From: a virus
Strand: one strand, 5' to 3'
Virus record (IMG/VR): IMGVR_UViG_3300030108_002714
Location: 1-32,727 of that record
Length of the DNA stretch: 32,727 nucleotides
The position numbers and the translations under genes were made by a program. The notes beneath the pieces were generated by a model. That model was given only the letters and a program-made list of their open reading frames with translations. It made no database searches and was not told where the DNA came from. Position 1 is the stretch's first letter, and each line of letters starts with the position of its first letter. Shown here piece after piece: positions 1,709 through 31,649 of this stretch.

Positions 1709-3118
1709 ATGGCATCATCATATACAACCAGTTTTGGCATAGAGAAGATAGGGTCTGGGGAACAGTCCGGAGCGTGGGGTACTACGACTAACCACAACCT
1801 TGATATTCTTGACCGGATTGCTTCTTTTAAAGCGGTGGGTCTTTCAGGAACTACGCACACGTTAACGGTTCGAGAAGCTTCACCTGGATCTGGCACAGAG
1901 AACCTTCAAGACGGTATGTATCGTGTGATTAGGTTTACGGGGGCTCTTGGTGCTAATAACACTGTAACGGTGGCTCCTAACACTACCGCCGCATACTTTA
2001 TTATGATAAACGCAACCACCGACTCAGGGTCCAGTGGCCCTTATTCGGTAATTGTGTCTCAAGGTTCTGGTGCGAATATAACCATAGAAAATGGTAAGTC
2101 TGCCATCGTTTACATGGACGGGGCAGGGTCAGGGGCCGCTGTTGTAGATGCTGTAGCTAATTTACAATTGGCTACAGTAACAGCCTCTGGAGACATCACC
2201 GCGAGTGGCACGTTCAATGCTTTAGGTGATACCGCTGCAGACGACAAGGCTGCGATGGGGTATACGTCTGCCGAAGGTCTTATTCTTACGGGGCAAGGTT
2301 CTACGAATGATGTAACTATCAAAAACGATGCGGATGCTGACGTTTTAGAAATTCCTACTGGCGGCACAGATGTAACAGTTGTTGGCAATATTACGGCTGG
2401 AGGAAACCTTGTAGCCACCGGGACGGTAGAACCAGCAGGGGACACTTCTTCAGGAGACAATGCAGCTATTGGTTACACTTCTGCCGAAGGTCTTATCCTT
2501 ACAGGTCAAGGTTCGACCAACGATGTAACAATCAAGAATGACGCGGACGCTGATGTCATTACTATTGCAACAGGGGGAACAGCCGTTGATGTTGTTGGAG
2601 ATCTTACTGCGGCAACTTTAAACGCGGACGGGGACACCTCCGCAGGTGATAACGCCGCGATGGGTTACACTTCTGCCGAAGGTCTTATCCTCACAGGACA
2701 GGGTAGCACCTCAGACGTAACCATCAAAAACGATGCAGACGCCACAGTATTTTCTGTAGCAACAGGGACAACCACTGGCACGTTTGCTGGCACTGTTCTG
2801 GCTAAAACAGATACGGATACGTCGAATACAGGAAGCGTTACGTTAGATTTTACGGCTAATCAGAATTTTGTTTTAACGCTTACGGGCAATGTTACACTAG
2901 CTAACCCTTCAACAGAACAGGTTGGTCAGGCTGGCGTGATTGTGTTTATCCAAGACGGCACAGGAAGTAGAACCGTTACTCTTGGAACGGACTACGAAAC
3001 ACCCGCTAGTGCTGGGTTAACTCTCAGTTCAACGGCAAGTGCTGTAGATGTTGTTCCGTACTTTGTAAAAGCCTCTGGCTCTATTCAACTTGGCGCACCA
3101 CAACTGGCATTTGGCTAA
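1709..3118 (+). CDS. Tail-fibre-like protein with tandem repeats
   Basis: This 469-residue protein begins MASSYTTSFGIEKIGSGEQS, followed by GAWGTTTNHNLDILD. That opening is typical of marine phage fibre-type proteins. Residues about 174-355 hold three tandem units of about 64-71 residues built around YTSAEGLILTGQG and DVTIKNDADAD. The C-terminus is a beta-rich domain with NFVLTLTGNVTLANP and GSRTVTLGTDYE strands. Ser, Thr, Gly and Ala dominate and cysteine is absent, as expected of trimeric fibres. It starts 10 bp after the previous stop behind a weak AGGAATAAG ribosome site and ends in TAATG with the next fibre gene. The fibre role is inferred from composition, repeats and context. Confidence 0.8.
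   Translation: MASSYTTSFGIEKIGSGEQSGAWGTTTNHNLDILDRIASFKAVGLSGTTHTLTVREASPGSGTENLQDGMYRVIRFTGALGANNTVTVAPNTTAAYFIMINATTDSGSSGPYSVIVSQGSGANITIENGKSAIVYMDGAGSGAAVVDAVANLQLATVTASGDITASGTFNALGDTAADDKAAMGYTSAEGLILTGQGSTNDVTIKNDADADVLEIPTGGTDVTVVGNITAGGNLVATGTVEPAGDTSSGDNAAIGYTSAEGLILTGQGSTNDVTIKNDADADVITIATGGTAVDVVGDLTAATLNADGDTSAGDNAAMGYTSAEGLILTGQGSTSDVTIKNDADATVFSVATGTTTGTFAGTVLAKTDTDTSNTGSVTLDFTANQNFVLTLTGNVTLANPSTEQVGQAGVIVFIQDGTGSRTVTLGTDYETPASAGLTLSSTASAVDVVPYFVKASGSIQLGAPQLAFG
2228..2790 (+). repeat. Three tandem repeats in the fibre gene
   Basis: Units start at about 2228, 2441 and 2633 (periods 213 and 192 bp). Each encodes D-T-x-x-x-D, then YTSAEGLILTGQG, then DVTIKNDADA. The block after ADA varies in length and sequence between copies, giving a conserved-core, variable-spacer design. 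In-frame units in a fibre gene can change shaft length by recombination. Confidence 0.85.
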
Positions 3119-6000
3119 TGACTATGTTTTCTTCTTTTTGGATGGCGAATGCTGGCGCTGATGCTTTTAGCGTTGATAACAGCGCCGTGTTTAATGACGA
3201 TGATAGTCAGTATTTAATTAGGGAAAATGCGTCGGCCTCTACAACTGGCGGCAGTGATGCCCGTAAAAAGTTTACCGTAAGCCTGTGGTGGAAGCATGGG
3301 AATATTCCAAGCGGCGGCCAAAATCTTTTTATTCAAAGAAACTCAAGTGCCAATTATATGAAATGCGCCATAGCTGGTTCAGGCGGCAATGAAGCTGCTC
3401 TTCAATTTTTTTCGGCTACGTTAGGCGTTTTTAGCACAGGTGATACAACTGCCGTCTTACGAGATTTTCACGCTTGGTATCATATACTATTCTATTATGA
3501 CTCCACGGATTCCACAGCGGGTGATAGGGCAAGGATTTATTTAAACGGAACAAGGTTAACGGATTTTCAAACATCAGCAACTAATCCTTCTAGCGGAGCG
3601 ATTACGCAGTTTGGCTCAAATAATGCAATCGTAATAGGTCAAAACCAAGGAGCCAGCGGATACAGCGATGGTTATATGGCTGAGATGGTTGTTATTGATG
3701 GACAGGCCTTAACCCCATCAAGTTTCACGGAAACTGACAGCAACGGCGTTTTAAGGCCGTTGGATATTTCAGCGCAAAATTTTACATTTGGTGATCAAGG
3801 ATTTTACCTACCGTTTACTAACTCTGCTGGTCTTGGTCAAGATTACAGCGGCGTCTCAACGACAATGATTGCCCAACAGAATACCTATGTTGGCACAAGT
3901 AATGCACACTCAGGAGATGCCTCTACGTTTAAACAAGTTCTGATTGCTGATTTTTCTGCAAAAATCCCAAAGATTGATTTTTTCGCACGGCAATATGATT
4001 GGTCAGGTGTTACTGTCAGAATTGAGACAAACACAGGAAGTAGCCCTGGTGATTCAACGGGAACACTAGTAGATTCCAATGCAGAGATTACTAATGTAAG
4101 CGGATCAAATAATGCTTATGTTACAGCAACTTTTCCTAACGGTGGTCCCGAAGTGGTTGCTGGGACGCAATATTGGATTGTTATTACATCTGGTCAGTTT
4201 GGCTTTGCCGCTCTATCGCCCGCTGGTACTTCCGTAGGACAGGTCGGGATGTATCAAGGTAGTTCATATTCTTCGACTGTTGGTCTATCGCATCGAGTCC
4301 ATTTTACGGGCAATCACTTTATGTCTCGCTCACCAACATCAGGGGCGGCTGGATATACAAGTCATGCACCCACGCAGTCTACCGATACTTGTACGAATAA
4401 CGCAGCAATTTTGTCACCGTTATGGACGGACACCACTCTTTCAAATGGCAACTTAAAAGCTGTCGCCACCGGAAACGCATATCAATGGGCAATCTCTTCT
4501 ATTGCTATCCCTAGTTCTGGAAAATGGACGTGCGAATTTCAATCTTCAAATATAAATGGTTCAAGTTTATACGGTTACATTGGCATTGCTCAGATGGGCA
4601 ATCATGCAAACAAATCTGGCACAGCTAACCGCTATGGGCTTAATGTCGGAAATGGTGAGTTGATGAATGCGGCGGGTAGCACCGTCCACAATTTCTCAAC
4701 CTCATCCTACGCAACTACATTGATGCGACTAGAGTATGATGCGGACGCCGATACCATCAAAATATTCTCAGCGGGTTCTGAAATTTTTCCAGCAAGCACA
4801 GGAGCATCCGCAACTGTTGGATTAACAGGCCAAAACTCCCTCCACTTTTTCTGCGCTCCTTATGGATCAGGGGCAGACTTTACAGCAACTTTCAAAGGTC
4901 TAAGCGGTACCCCAACAAGTGGGTACTTAGAATTAAATACAACTAATTTACTTACTACTTCAACACCTGCTATTGAAGACGGCTCTGCTTATTTTCAAAC
5001 AACGCTATACTCAGGCAATGGTAGTACACAAACTATAACCCAATCAGAAAATAGCACGTTCCAACCAGACATGATCTGGGGGAAACAAACAACTGGTGCG
5101 CAAGAGCCTACAATTTTTGATGCTGTTCGTGGAACTACAAAATATATTCAAACAAATAGTACCGCAGCAGAGGCAACGCAATCAGGTGTTACCGCATTTA
5201 ACAGCAATGGCTTTGATTTAGGATCATGGGCAGTTATGAACGAAAGTTCAAACACACACGTTGCATGGCAGTGGCTTGCTGGTAATTCAACCGCAAGCAA
5301 TTCAAACGGCAGTATTACAAGCAATGTGAGTGTAAATCAGACGGCTGGATTCAGCATAGTAAAGTATACTGGAAACGCAACAGTTGGGGCAACTGTGGGG
5401 CATGGGCTTGGGGCCGTTCCGTCTTGGATCGTAATTAAACCTTTGGGTGTAACTGAGGGTTGGGCGAATTATCACGTAGGAATTGGCAATACGGGAGGGG
5501 TCTATTGGAACTCAACTATAGCAACGGATACTGGCGATTATTACTGGAACGACACAACGCCCAGTTCATCTGTGTTTACGTTGCACGATCACCCGTTAAA
5601 TAATGGCAGCGGCAATGAAATGATTGCCTACTGTTGGTGTGAAAAACCAGGGTTTAGCAAGTTTGGCACCTTTGAGGGTAATGGTTCGTCCACTGACGGC
5701 CCTCTCATAGAGCTTGGGTTTAAACCCGCATGGTTCATATGGAAAAATATTGACTCAGGAACTAACGGTGATTGGACTATAATGGACTCTGTTCGTGATC
5801 CGTTTAACATGGTTGAAAGCAATCTTAGAGCTAATTCAAACATGGCAGCGGATACAGGTGAGGCTGACTTAGATTTTTTAAGCAACGGTGTAAAACATCG
5901 TGGCGGGGCATCAGCCAGATTCAACGCAAGTTCAACGTATCTTTACGCGGCATTTGCAGAACACCCCTTTGCAGGAACAACGCCAGCAACGGCAAGATAG
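3118..6000 (+). CDS. Large receptor-binding or tail-fibre protein with LamG-, SPRY- and DUF7483-like regions
   Basis: This is a 960-residue beta protein. Residues about 20-215 resemble a concanavalin-A/LamG lectin fold: KFTVSLWWKHGN, the AWYHILFYYDS strand and GYMAEMVVIDGQAL. Residues about 255-370 form a second beta domain ending VAGTQYWIVITSGQFGF, as in adhesin-like domains. Residues about 420-570 look SPRY-like (GKWTCEFQSS, YGYIGIAQMG). From about 640 to the end the layout matches the DUF7483 phage domain, with WQWLAG, GFSIVKYTGN, VGHGLGAVPSWIVIK and FKPAWFIWKN followed by a YLYAAFAEHPF ending. The multi-domain sugar-binding composition and the place between fibre genes suggest host recognition. 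Domain names come from memory of the patterns and need a profile search. Confidence 0.8.
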   Translation: MTMFSSFWMANAGADAFSVDNSAVFNDDDSQYLIRENASASTTGGSDARKKFTVSLWWKHGNIPSGGQNLFIQRNSSANYMKCAIAGSGGNEAALQFFSATLGVFSTGDTTAVLRDFHAWYHILFYYDSTDSTAGDRARIYLNGTRLTDFQTSATNPSSGAITQFGSNNAIVIGQNQGASGYSDGYMAEMVVIDGQALTPSSFTETDSNGVLRPLDISAQNFTFGDQGFYLPFTNSAGLGQDYSGVSTTMIAQQNTYVGTSNAHSGDASTFKQVLIADFSAKIPKIDFFARQYDWSGVTVRIETNTGSSPGDSTGTLVDSNAEITNVSGSNNAYVTATFPNGGPEVVAGTQYWIVITSGQFGFAALSPAGTSVGQVGMYQGSSYSSTVGLSHRVHFTGNHFMSRSPTSGAAGYTSHAPTQSTDTCTNNAAILSPLWTDTTLSNGNLKAVATGNAYQWAISSIAIPSSGKWTCEFQSSNINGSSLYGYIGIAQMGNHANKSGTANRYGLNVGNGELMNAAGSTVHNFSTSSYATTLMRLEYDADADTIKIFSAGSEIFPASTGASATVGLTGQNSLHFFCAPYGSGADFTATFKGLSGTPTSGYLELNTTNLLTTSTPAIEDGSAYFQTTLYSGNGSTQTITQSENSTFQPDMIWGKQTTGAQEPTIFDAVRGTTKYIQTNSTAAEATQSGVTAFNSNGFDLGSWAVMNESSNTHVAWQWLAGNSTASNSNGSITSNVSVNQTAGFSIVKYTGNATVGATVGHGLGAVPSWIVIKPLGVTEGWANYHVGIGNTGGVYWNSTIATDTGDYYWNDTTPSSSVFTLHDHPLNNGSGNEMIAYCWCEKPGFSKFGTFEGNGSSTDGPLIELGFKPAWFIWKNIDSGTNGDWTIMDSVRDPFNMVESNLRANSNMAADTGEADLDFLSNGVKHRGGASARFNASSTYLYAAFAEHPFAGTTPATAR

Positions 6001-29316: not shown

Positions 29317-29783
29317 TGTCCGTCTTTCTTCGCATAGAATATGTGCTGACCAATCTTGGACTTCCGCTCAAGGACCATGGACCAATCAGGCTTGACCCAA
29401 TCTGCATGGTAGTGGGTGGCGTCCTCAAGTCCGGTTATCTTTATCTCCTTCATCAGAAGATTAAAAGCGATACCTTTGGCAATGCGCCATGACTCCTCGT
29501 CCGTTGGACGTTCAGGCCTACCATCACACCAATATGTAAACTGACACTGATACTTTATAGGATTGCCACGCCAGTAACGGCCCTGATGCACAACGCCACA
29601 CACCGTGTCTGGGTAGTCTGGATGGTCCACCCGGTTCTGGATGACCACGCCCACCGCTACCATGCCCACGATTCCCTGATCACGGGCCTCAAAATACAAC
29701 GCCTCTGCTAAACACTTCTGCTCGTTTGCACTCGCTGCACTCGCACAGATCGACAACAAGATTGCCCCCAATAAACTTCTCAT
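29313..29783 (-). CDS. SleB-type cell wall hydrolase with signal peptide
   Basis: The ATG at 29783 (ATGA overlap with the PP-loop gene) is chosen; a GTG at 29792 adds three residues. A signal peptide is visible: MRSLLGAILLSICASAASAN, likely cleaved after ASA. The mature part starts with CLAEALYFEARDQG, the SleB/Hydrolase_2 motif containing the catalytic Glu, then GMVAVGVVIQNRVDHP, CGVVHQG and WCDGRP. The family acts as lytic transglycosylase on peptidoglycan. With its export signal it could reach the periplasm without a holin, as Sec-exported phage endolysins do. Length (about 156) is normal for a single domain. Confidence 0.88.
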   Translation of the reverse strand: MRSLLGAILLSICASAASANEQKCLAEALYFEARDQGIVGMVAVGVVIQNRVDHPDYPDTVCGVVHQGRYWRGNPIKYQCQFTYWCDGRPERPTDEESWRIAKGIAFNLLMKEIKITGLEDATHYHADWVKPDWSMVLERKSKIGQHIFYAKKDGQ

Positions 29784-30634
29784 AGTCCGCACATCCCTTC
29801 ACACTCGTTCATCATCTGATCGTCAAACAACTCGCCTTGGCCTCTCTCTTCTGCTGTACTGAAATCAACGTCACGCAACGGTATGCGCTTGGCGTGTAAG
29901 AATCTCGCGCCATGGAATCGCCCCTCTGCCTCACGAATCTTCTCATCAACCTGGCAAGCTTCCTCAAACTCGTCAGGGAATACATCCTTAATACGGCGCC
30001 ACTCATGGTCCGTATGGAACGGGCAACCTATACAAGCACTCTTGGCCAGCGTCCGGTCTGCGTGTTTATCGTTAAACCAACGAAGGCAATCGCGCCGATT
30101 AAAGTCTTCCTCCAACAACGGCCAACGGTTCTCAACCCAAGAGTCTTGACTTGGCTTAACCCGCATCACCTCATCTTTGGATATGCCAATCCACATCTCC
30201 ACCACAAAACCTTTCGGCGTCCGTTGGCGAGGACGTAAGCCAGCCAGTTCTCGAACCTTCTTCCGTATCGGCTTGAGCTTGTACTCACTGGTACACTGCC
30301 TACGGGCCATGCCGTTACTGCCATCTTTGTTTATAAGAAAGAAAGGTATCGACGCGAACTTATGACCCGTGGTGTTCAGATCCGATTCCAAATCTTCTTT
30401 GATGTTGCCCCGCTGCACACGGTACACAGGAAATGATAGTTGCGTCTCTAACCAATCTAAATGGTCATACACTTCCTTGGGTTCCCAACCCGTGTCTGCA
30501 AATACAGCGCAATCGGGCCTTGGACCAATGTCCCCAGCTTCAGCCATCAAAGCCATAACCGTAGACTGAACTCCCGCGCCTAGACTTATGACACGAAACG
30601 ATGGGTTCTCTACAGGCTTGAACATATCACGCAT
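29780..30634 (-). CDS. PAPS-reductase/PP-loop-like protein (adenine nucleotide alpha-hydrolase family)
   Basis: This 284-residue protein begins with a PP-loop variant SLGAGVQSTVMALMAEAG, then CAVFADTGWEP and RQCTSEYKLKPIRKKVR. The C-terminal part has SACIGCPFHTDHEWRRIKD and ends CEGMCGL, giving two cysteine pairs. This layout is that of the phosphoadenosine-phosphosulfate-reductase-like family found in phages beside DNA methyltransferases. PP-loop enzymes adenylate a substrate, and DndC-type relatives act in DNA phosphorothioation. The gene overlaps the cytosine methyltransferase gene by 8 bases. The substrate is unknown. A DNA-modification role is inferred from the neighbour. Confidence 0.85.
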   Translation of the reverse strand: MRDMFKPVENPSFRVISLGAGVQSTVMALMAEAGDIGPRPDCAVFADTGWEPKEVYDHLDWLETQLSFPVYRVQRGNIKEDLESDLNTTGHKFASIPFFLINKDGSNGMARRQCTSEYKLKPIRKKVRELAGLRPRQRTPKGFVVEMWIGISKDEVMRVKPSQDSWVENRWPLLEEDFNRRDCLRWFNDKHADRTLAKSACIGCPFHTDHEWRRIKDVFPDEFEEACQVDEKIREAEGRFHGARFLHAKRIPLRDVDFSTAEERGQGELFDDQMMNECEGMCGL

Positions 30635-31649
30635 AATATGTCTCCCTTATTGCTTCTCCGATTTTTTGCGCGATTTGCGGGACGATGCTGTTTCCCAAGG
30701 CACGGAGTTGAGGTACTCGATTGGGTAGCCCATCAACCAAGCGACCCACTTCGGGTTCAACTTCCCACCACTCTTCGGATCTGCCGCATTCACCGCCGCT
30801 CCAATGTTCCATCCGTGACTCCCGTCCAGATGACTTGGCGCCACACCCTCGCCGCCCGTCATCGATGTCGGAGTCGGCCACAGCTTGACCATGTCTCCCA
30901 GATTTGACTGATGACCCTTTTCCATCCGTGCTTTTATCTTTTCCGGATTTTGATACTCGCCGCCGCCCTTCTCCCTCGCGTTGGGAGTCGGCCAGAACTG
31001 CTCCACCGCGTAGTCCAGCCTGTCGTTCCTGATCTTCCCGTCCTTCCGCACCACCGTTGGTCCGCTGCCCTTGTGGTCGCTGGCTGTCGGAGTCGGCCAC
31101 AAAGTCGAACCCCAACTGCCGCTGTCCCGCGTTGCCATCGAAGGTGCCATCTGGTTCGCTTTCGCTGTCGGCGTGTGCAACAATCCAGAGTCGTCTGCGG
31201 AGGTGCGGGGCTCCTGTCGCGCAAGCTGGTATATCAAACGTCCTTGTGGCGTAGCCTTCGCTTTCCAAGTCAGTGAGTACTTCGTCCAAGCCCAATCGGA
31301 TGAGCCCAACAACGTTTTCTCCAACAATCCAAGTGGGCCTGCATTCCCGGATAAGCCTAAACATTTCTGGCCAGAGATGGCGGGGGTCGTCTTGGGCTTG
31401 CTGCTTTCCCGCTTGACTAAACGGTTGGCAAGGGAATCCTCCGCAAATAACATCGGGTCGGGTCGGGAGATCTCGTCCTTTGACATCTCTTATGTCTCCT
31501 AATACAGGAACATCGGGCCAGTGATATTGTAGCACGGCCCGACAATATGGTTCGTTCTCAACGAAACAGCTCGTCTCAAAAAAATTGGTGGCTTCGAGCC
31601 CTCGCGCAAAACCACCAATCCCTGAAAATAAATCCAATGTGCGTAACAC
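30627..31649 (-). CDS. C5-cytosine DNA methyltransferase (Dcm type)
   Basis: This 340-residue enzyme methylates cytosine in DNA. The start is GTG 31649, overlapping the stop of a 22-residue gene. Motif I is DLFSGIGGFARG (6-17), motif IV GGFPCQPFSQAG (70-81, Cys74 nucleophile), motif VI GENV (110-113), motif VIII APHLRRRLWIV (147-157) and the end RALGNSIVPQIAQKIGEAI (motifs IX-X, from 316). The target-recognition region (about 160-300) is oddly low-complexity, with four ADS units and many Arg, Gly and Ser. The same DNA is open in a second frame and may constrain it. It probably protects phage DNA or resists host restriction. Confidence 0.93.
   Translation of the reverse strand: MLRTLDLFSGIGGFARGLEATNFFETSCFVENEPYCRAVLQYHWPDVPVLGDIRDVKGRDLPTRPDVICGGFPCQPFSQAGKQQAQDDPRHLWPEMFRLIRECRPTWIVGENVVGLIRLGLDEVLTDLESEGYATRTFDIPACATGAPHLRRRLWIVAHADSESEPDGTFDGNAGQRQLGFDFVADSDSQRPQGQRTNGGAEGREDQERQAGLRGGAVLADSQREGEGRRRVSKSGKDKSTDGKGSSVKSGRHGQAVADSDIDDGRRGCGAKSSGRESRMEHWSGGECGRSEEWWEVEPEVGRLVDGLPNRVPQLRALGNSIVPQIAQKIGEAIRETYYA
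30647..31486 (-). CDS. Overlapping-frame protein inside the methyltransferase gene
   Basis: A 279-residue frame, shifted +1 relative to the methyltransferase, is completely open. It contains SGNAGPLGLLEKTLLGSSDW and KYSLTWKAKATPQGRL, then four LWPTPT-type units (LLHTPTAKA, LWPTPTASDHKGSG, FWPTPNAREKGGG and LWPTPTSMTG), KIKARMEKGHQSNLGD and KLNPKWVAWLMGYPIEYL. Such LLPTPTA and LNPEWVEWLMG proteins are, as I recall, seen as stand-alone phage and mobile-element ORFs. The frame may be a second real gene, a frameshift product, or the reason for the odd recognition region. Confidence is moderate because overlapping-frame conservation cannot be tested here. The annotated start (ATG 31486) is the first available. 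Confidence 0.5.
   Translation of the reverse strand: MSKDEISRPDPMLFAEDSLANRLVKRESSKPKTTPAISGQKCLGLSGNAGPLGLLEKTLLGSSDWAWTKYSLTWKAKATPQGRLIYQLARQEPRTSADDSGLLHTPTAKANQMAPSMATRDSGSWGSTLWPTPTASDHKGSGPTVVRKDGKIRNDRLDYAVEQFWPTPNAREKGGGEYQNPEKIKARMEKGHQSNLGDMVKLWPTPTSMTGGEGVAPSHLDGSHGWNIGAAVNAADPKSGGKLNPKWVAWLMGYPIEYLNSVPWETASSRKSRKKSEKQ

Follow-up and report, generated by a model that had tools for sequence, protein, structure and literature searches.

A nested reading frame in a viral C5-cytosine DNA methyltransferase gene as the probable target-recognition subunit of a two-chain enzyme

The 32,727-nt viral sequence analyzed here (IMG/VR record IMGVR_UViG_3300030108_002714; hereafter the window) carries, on its minus strand, a C5-cytosine DNA methyltransferase ORF with a second ORF lying wholly within it, on the same strand and at an offset of +1. 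We propose, with a probability of roughly 0.8, that this locus encodes a two-subunit C5-cytosine DNA methyltransferase, in which the large chain (alpha) would be catalytic and the nested chain (beta) would recognize the target by means of modules opening with WPTP. On this proposal, drawn from sequence comparison, the main frame would supply the catalytic fold with motifs I-VIII and X, while beta, translated from its own ATG, would contribute the target-recognition part that alpha lacks, namely a string of exchangeable WPTP modules with a motif-IX-like element at its end. In the variable region selection would act mainly on beta; alpha would be weakly constrained there but would have to stay stop-free for translation to continue as far as motif X. 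The alpha and beta chains would assemble as one enzyme, whose probable role is to protect the phage genome from host restriction by methylating it. Coordinates are collected in Table 1.

Table 1. Features of the nested methyltransferase locus, in window coordinates
Feature	Position	Strand	Basis
Putative large subunit (alpha), C5-cytosine DNA methyltransferase ORF	30627..31649	-	340 aa, GTG start
Putative nested small subunit (beta)	30647..31486	-	+1 ORF, 279 aa, ATG to TAA; phrog_1008, ORF nesting, codon-position test
AGGAG Shine-Dalgarno-like site	31496..31500	-	9 nt before beta ATG; sequence
TAA stop in beta frame	31490..31492	-	two codons upstream of beta ATG; sequence
Alpha motif IV (GGFPCQPFS, catalytic Cys)	31416..31442	-	translation; invariant columns, alpha alignment A2
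Alpha motif VIII (RRRLW)	31185..31199	-	invariant columns, alpha alignment A2
Alpha variable ('ADS') region, residues 159-300	30750..31175	-	low AF2 pLDDT; family p1/p3 2.47
Alpha motif X core (GNSIVP)	30678..30695	-	invariant G319, N320, P324 in alpha alignment A2
Beta conserved N-part (residues 13-129)	31100..31450	-	alignment A1, 48 members
Beta module 1 (WPTPTASDHKGSG...), cluster 15	30995..31099	-	module clustering
Beta module 2 (WPTPNAREKGGGEYQ...), cluster 4	30881..30994	-	module clustering
Beta module 3 (WPTPTSMTGGEGVAP...), cluster 5	30761..30880	-	module clustering
Beta motif-IX-like end (LNPKWVAWLMGYPIEY)	30713..30760	-	invariant residues over 48 members; DLane gp65 likeness

Alpha matches PF00145 (E = 2.7e-42, residues 3-211), TIGR00675 (107.3 bits, cut-off 100.65) and PHROG 363 (2.8e-78), and motifs I, IV, VI, VIII and X of the C5-cytosine DNA methyltransferase core are present in it, the numbers IV and VIII following established usage. 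Beta matches phrog_1008 (E = 7.1e-37; beta residues 13-261 to profile positions 40-281 of 329). Both PHROGs, 363 and 1008, are labelled just 'DNA methyltransferase', and the nesting is absent from the search output. An M.HhaI profile matches alpha over residues 12-171, covering motifs I-VIII, and a second match at motif X was not significant. Comparison of alpha with M.HhaI gave a Z of 20.1 with 180 residues aligned and an rmsd of 3.1. The AF2 model of alpha is confident in most of the core and in the last helix, with pLDDT below 50 at residues 163-207, 209-225, 230-234 and 245-315. A small domain (TRD and motif IX) is not recognizable in the alpha chain, and there is no significant M.HhaI match past residue 171. 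For beta, no Pfam or NCBIfam model matched up to E 1 and no PDB sequence up to E 10, none of the 48 aligned beta members (0/48) matched Pfam or NCBIfam at E 0.01, and the AF2 model is poor (pLDDT 52). The downstream neighbor, at 29780-30634, is PAPS-reductase-like (phrog_424, 1.9e-57) and overlaps the alpha end by 8 nt. A promoter and terminator scan returned counts close to chance.

The first-pass annotation had described the +1 frame as wholly open within the methyltransferase gene, and this is confirmed. With the alpha protein held fixed, synonymous recoding with window codon usage predicts 11.5 stops in the +1 frame and shuffling of alpha's own codons predicts 8.6; a stop-free +1 frame arose in 0 of 20,000 trials under either null. 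The +2 frame over the window locus has 9 stops. With beta held fixed, 14.3 stops are expected in the alpha frame of the variable part and 0 are observed. In a separate stop null the mean was 6.7 stops; the observed 0 there follows from how the ORF was constructed, and only the null is informative.

The same annotation had paired each ADS unit of the main frame with a WPTP-type unit of the other and had supposed one repeated DNA block serving both. The units do coincide, alpha residues ~159, 185, 220 and 258 falling on LHTP (beta 103) and WPTP (beta 130, 165 and 203); however, what recurs is a 12-nt seam rather than the whole block. The pairing follows from the genetic code, because WPTP codons read V/L/M-A-(D/N/Y/H)-(S/T/A/P) in the alpha frame. 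Among 315 WPTP seams, alpha most often reads VADT (48), VADS (39) or VADA (35); its ADS repeats are what the WPTP seam spells in the main frame. WLMGYP and LGNSIVP lie where they had been placed.

To see which frame is under selection, we counted differences at alpha codon positions 1, 2 and 3 in 96 pairs sharing no locus, with blocks aligned by nucleotide identity. These were.146/.087/.445 in the alpha-only start (region A),.163/.090/.226 over motifs IV-VIII (B),.312/.129/.126 in the variable region (C),.243/.088/.160 in the motif-IX zone (D) and.171/.105/.476 after the beta stop (E). The ratio of position 1 to position 3 (p1/p3) is.33 in A,.72 in B, 2.47 (2.05-2.96) in C, 1.52 in D and.36 in E, and for region C it reaches 2.86 in 24 pairs from genome contigs. 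Since the first position of an alpha codon is the third of a beta codon, the evolution of the variable region is chiefly that of a beta coding sequence. From A to E, divergence at alpha four-fold sites runs.516/.217/.068/.104/.537 and at beta four-fold sites.094/.160/.336/.309/.101. At the amino-acid level, identity across region C reaches.817 in beta versus.619 in alpha. Of the two readings of the variable region, that of beta is the better conserved, and alpha is weakly constrained. The suggestion of a dual-coding locus is strongly supported by the region C ratio, the stop nulls and the conservation of both frames. Recognition had been assigned to the ADS-rich main frame; it most likely resides in the alternate frame, the main frame being the less conserved of the two.

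It might be argued that no second protein exists and that the beta frame looks conserved as a by-product of a conserved alpha sequence and biased codon use. Beta letters in motifs IV-VIII are partly dictated by alpha, and slow third positions in those motifs are seen too in control genes, six related methyltransferases of T4-like phages whose +1 frame holds 9-14 stops (all 15 combinations, which are not independent). Four-fold sites over motifs IV-VIII are slower in the control as well (.251 vs.457), so that the case for selection on beta is weaker in these motifs, where it rests on p1/p3 (.72 vs.45) and on the absent stops. In the variable region, by contrast, p1/p3 is.28 in the control as against the value above, and alpha four-fold divergence is far below that outside the overlap (.068 vs.516). 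With the stop nulls and the Shine-Dalgarno (SD) enrichment described below also against it, the by-product explanation, already contradicted for the variable region, is in our judgment highly implausible.

Four-fold sites of beta in region C (.336) diverge less than those of alpha where the two frames do not overlap (.516,.537). Avoidance of stops does not account for this, divergence being.339 where a stop could arise and.333 where it could not; constraint on alpha or an effect of the identity filter may be responsible. A reading of alpha as a pure passenger in region C is weakened by this residual slow-down, which stop avoidance does not explain. The claim for beta is unaffected because it does not rest on that reading.

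Beta appears to have its own translation start. An SD (core of at least 4 nt, 4-12 nt from the ATG) precedes the beta ATG in 135 of 181 testable loci, compared with 56.0 expected under alpha-synonymous recoding and a maximum of 77 among 20,000 draws; the remaining 46/181 loci have none under the rule used. A beta-frame stop lies at most 9 codons upstream of the beta ATG in 162/181 loci. The +1 frame had alternatively been viewed as a frameshift product, but frameshifting is not needed because the window beta ORF has its own ATG with AGGAG and an upstream TAA (Table 1). Programmed frameshifting in the overlap could in principle yield an alpha-beta fusion instead of free beta, and single-chain fusions do occur in the mycobacteriophages DLane and Batiatus; in the window, both frames run in parallel for 280 codons. 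The frequency of upstream stops and of SDs argues otherwise, and we regard this route as quite improbable.

In beta, the conserved N-part is followed by modules opening with WPTP or something similar, then by L-N-P-x-W-V-x-W-L-M-G-(Y/F)-P and, in part of the family only, by a basic tail. Over 48 beta members L243, P245, V248, W250-G253 and P255 are invariant in this end, which we term motif-IX-like on the basis of pattern and position; comparison of the beta profile (A1) with that of ordinary C5 methyltransferases with a classical motif IX (A3) gave no match. A total of 570 modules were cut in 220 loci, with a median length of 39 aa and falling into 174 clusters, singletons included. Each beta has 0-5 modules, mostly 2-3, with none in 5 loci, and 215 loci display 155 distinct module strings, that of the window being clusters 15-4-5. 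Among 632 alignable module pairs, 40.7% are at different ordinal positions, and 4/632 are at least 88% alike at the DNA level with a divergent or poorly alignable N-part. Because of these two figures, module rearrangement is clear and the case for recent transfer between lineages thin. Multispecific phage C5 methyltransferases (SPR, phi3T) also carry multiple interchangeable recognition units, each some tens of residues long, but in a single chain, whereas the units of beta are in a nested frame. By comparison with those recognition units, each module of the window string would have a target of its own.

The nested arrangement is widespread. We assembled 275 loci, namely the window, 9 phage records and 265 loci retrieved by scanning with beta, with alpha or with a beta profile; two of the beta-side scan lists hold the best 80 of more matches. 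Among the matches listed, beta is a +1 ORF overlapping the catalytic methyltransferase ORF in 266/275 loci, of which at least 220 are distinct (window included) and the rest are repeats of the same contig. The exceptions are four loci with a short overlap only (L086, L152, L162, L220), four without a catalytic match, either at contig ends (L053, L068, L128) or rearranged (L066), and one, L129, that shows no beta, its contig ending before the overlap. A true stand-alone beta was not found among the 275 loci. Embedding of every match combined with no excess constraint had been named as the pattern that would speak against dual coding; we did find no stand-alone copy, but the variable region has a large excess of constraint. 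Genome-contig loci are nested in 79/80 cases among the matches listed, L220 being re-split, and their titles name Bacillota, Pseudomonadota, Bacteroidetes, Acidobacteria, Verrucomicrobia, Chloroflexi, actinobacterial groups and others. Most of these are probably prophages.

Because most loci came from beta searches, open beta frames in them prove little. An alpha-first scan, reaching alphas of ~32% identity or more, listed 42 loci, 41 of which were fetched anew, 25/41 being on contigs of the earlier beta scan. A beta match was present in 40/41 of these loci and in 15/16 of those on contigs new to the beta scan, the exception being L129 with its truncated contig. The 40 loci with beta have 0 stops in the +1 frame versus 2-18 in the +2 frame. 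Apparent beta-only conservation in L015 and L016 was rejected as a BLAST artefact, both frames being intact and alike. Two aberrant copies were also encountered. L066, a rearranged copy that has lost the alpha catalytic part, holds at 1253-1990 the second half of beta (modules and WLMGYP) after what is by eye an unrelated PIN-like stretch, and L061 has at 2422-2592 an alpha stop after 56 codons with beta intact, either a broken copy or a sequence error.

Both halves of the pair are also found joined or differently divided. In the single chain of mycobacteriophage DLane gp65, the alpha catalytic model matches residues 5-184 (1.6e-34; hhalign probability 99.8) and the beta model residues 248-427 (1.5e-11; hhalign probability 94.5), and FPEWMMGWP stands ~20 residues before GNGVCPQQ, in the order motif IX, motif X. 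Module parts and the catalytic domain share a single chain in two mycobacteriophages, DLane (L277) and Batiatus (L278). The +1 frame of both keeps LPTP-type units beside the alpha reading (two in DLane), which would fit two frames joined through an indel. In L152, L162 and L220, alpha stops just past motif VIII, the beta frame carries motifs IX and X, and the alpha frame beyond its end holds several to many stops. From these three loci, the alpha variable region is dispensable once motif X sits in the beta frame. In Kingsley, alpha-like gp70 (2.2e-29) and beta-like gp71 (1e-8) are in tandem.

The fused and re-split forms place beta modules at the position of the small domain, the very domain that is not recognizable in alpha, and beta occurs apart from alpha only in the rearranged L066 and at contig ends. 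These observations weigh against beta being a real nested gene for an independent protein, for instance an anti-restriction factor or a regulator, with no methyltransferase role. Overprinted genes are often functionally unrelated to their host gene, and beta has no Pfam, NCBIfam or PDB sequence match; we nevertheless consider an independent protein unlikely. The second protein of the first-pass annotation makes better sense as part of the methyltransferase itself, in the form of a subunit, than as a protein of independent function. Within the two-subunit reading, we put at about even odds a fuller account in which the modules are combinatorial DNA-recognition cassettes. A swap at the WPTP/VADS seam would then alter the methylated sites, the catalytic frame would mainly need to remain stop-free, the alpha variable region would be a dual-coding read-through spacer and not a recognition domain, and the single-chain and split methyltransferases of other phages would have arisen by frame merging or separation.

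M.EcoHK31I is a two-polypeptide C5 methyltransferase with the target YGGCCR. Lee et al. (1995) are said to have placed its small gene inside the large gene in the other frame, which would resemble the nesting in the window. A published account gives its large chain motifs I-VIII and X and its small chain motif IX, and places the predicted TRD in the large subunit (PMC3404938). The split of motifs between chains is like that of the window pair in layout, motif IX of the window being assigned by pattern and position. The published TRD, however, is in the large chain, whereas selection in the window family points to the nested chain with its shuffled modules; the alpha variable region evolves mainly in the beta frame, with residual alpha constraint possible. 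M.AquI is laid out, in the same account, with motifs I-VIII in alpha and a variable part, IX and X in beta (PMC3404938). It is similar to L152, L162 and L220 in having motif X in the small chain and differs from the window, where the pair is fully nested and motif X (GNSIVP) is in alpha.

C5 methyltransferases totally overlapping in different frames are mentioned for streptococcal phages and Tn5252 (PMC5601072). Streptococcal phage phiARI0746 (L279) differs from the window: its alpha is complete in one chain, and the ORF nested within it, phrog_16143, has neither modules nor the WLMG end. This suggests a second kind of nested pair, to which the published streptococcal and Tn5252 cases may belong. 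The phrog_16143 ORF (L279 2146-2580, and L281-L349) is likewise nested at +1, but within C5 methyltransferases that form a complete single chain, and its conserved end resembles SLSDILEEQVDxKYFLS. It is at the +1 offset in 69/70 loci, which were found by searching for it, and in L343 it is open for just 32 codons. Past motif VIII, 27 pairs of these loci with no locus in common give a p1/p3 of 1.59 (1.28-1.95) for as long as the nested frame stays open and 0.32 beyond its stop; the value for motifs IV-VIII, 0.45, gives no sign of selection on the nested frame.

The window-type pair is annotated in some records, among them K1ind2 and Paenibacillus phage Shelly, where the label is 'g55 internal gene'. 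N15 gene 58, Hades, Bas70, Bas78 and SI7 each have a nested ORF that matches the beta model (8.3e-21 to 1.5e-13) and is unannotated in the regions examined; for Tunturi_1 it is the beta frame (8.8e-20) that is annotated as the CDS. Two features are listed under the match in 13/60 phage records, a spread sample of 191 matching records. Often, annotation gives just one of the two proteins. K1ind2 (L001) has at 2866-3663 the GenBank features 'putative C-specific methylase' and 'putative Mte8-like protein'. A therapeutic phage that performed poorly differs in nine genes, one of them Mte8-like (PMC5582158).

Modular recognition units in a nested methyltransferase frame were not found described in the literature surveyed, in which older papers are thinly covered and several sources are represented by excerpts. 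These putative recognition units and the breadth of occurrence of the nested pair are what is new here. To our knowledge, a long same-strand nested pair, wide in phages and bacteria and with selection passing between the frames, is unusual. The pair bears on annotation, beta being without a Pfam or NCBIfam match and its PHROG label generic. The two-subunit reading predicts which chain would set the methylation targets and, for the biology of these phages, suggests a means of escape from restriction that may be quickly re-assorted.
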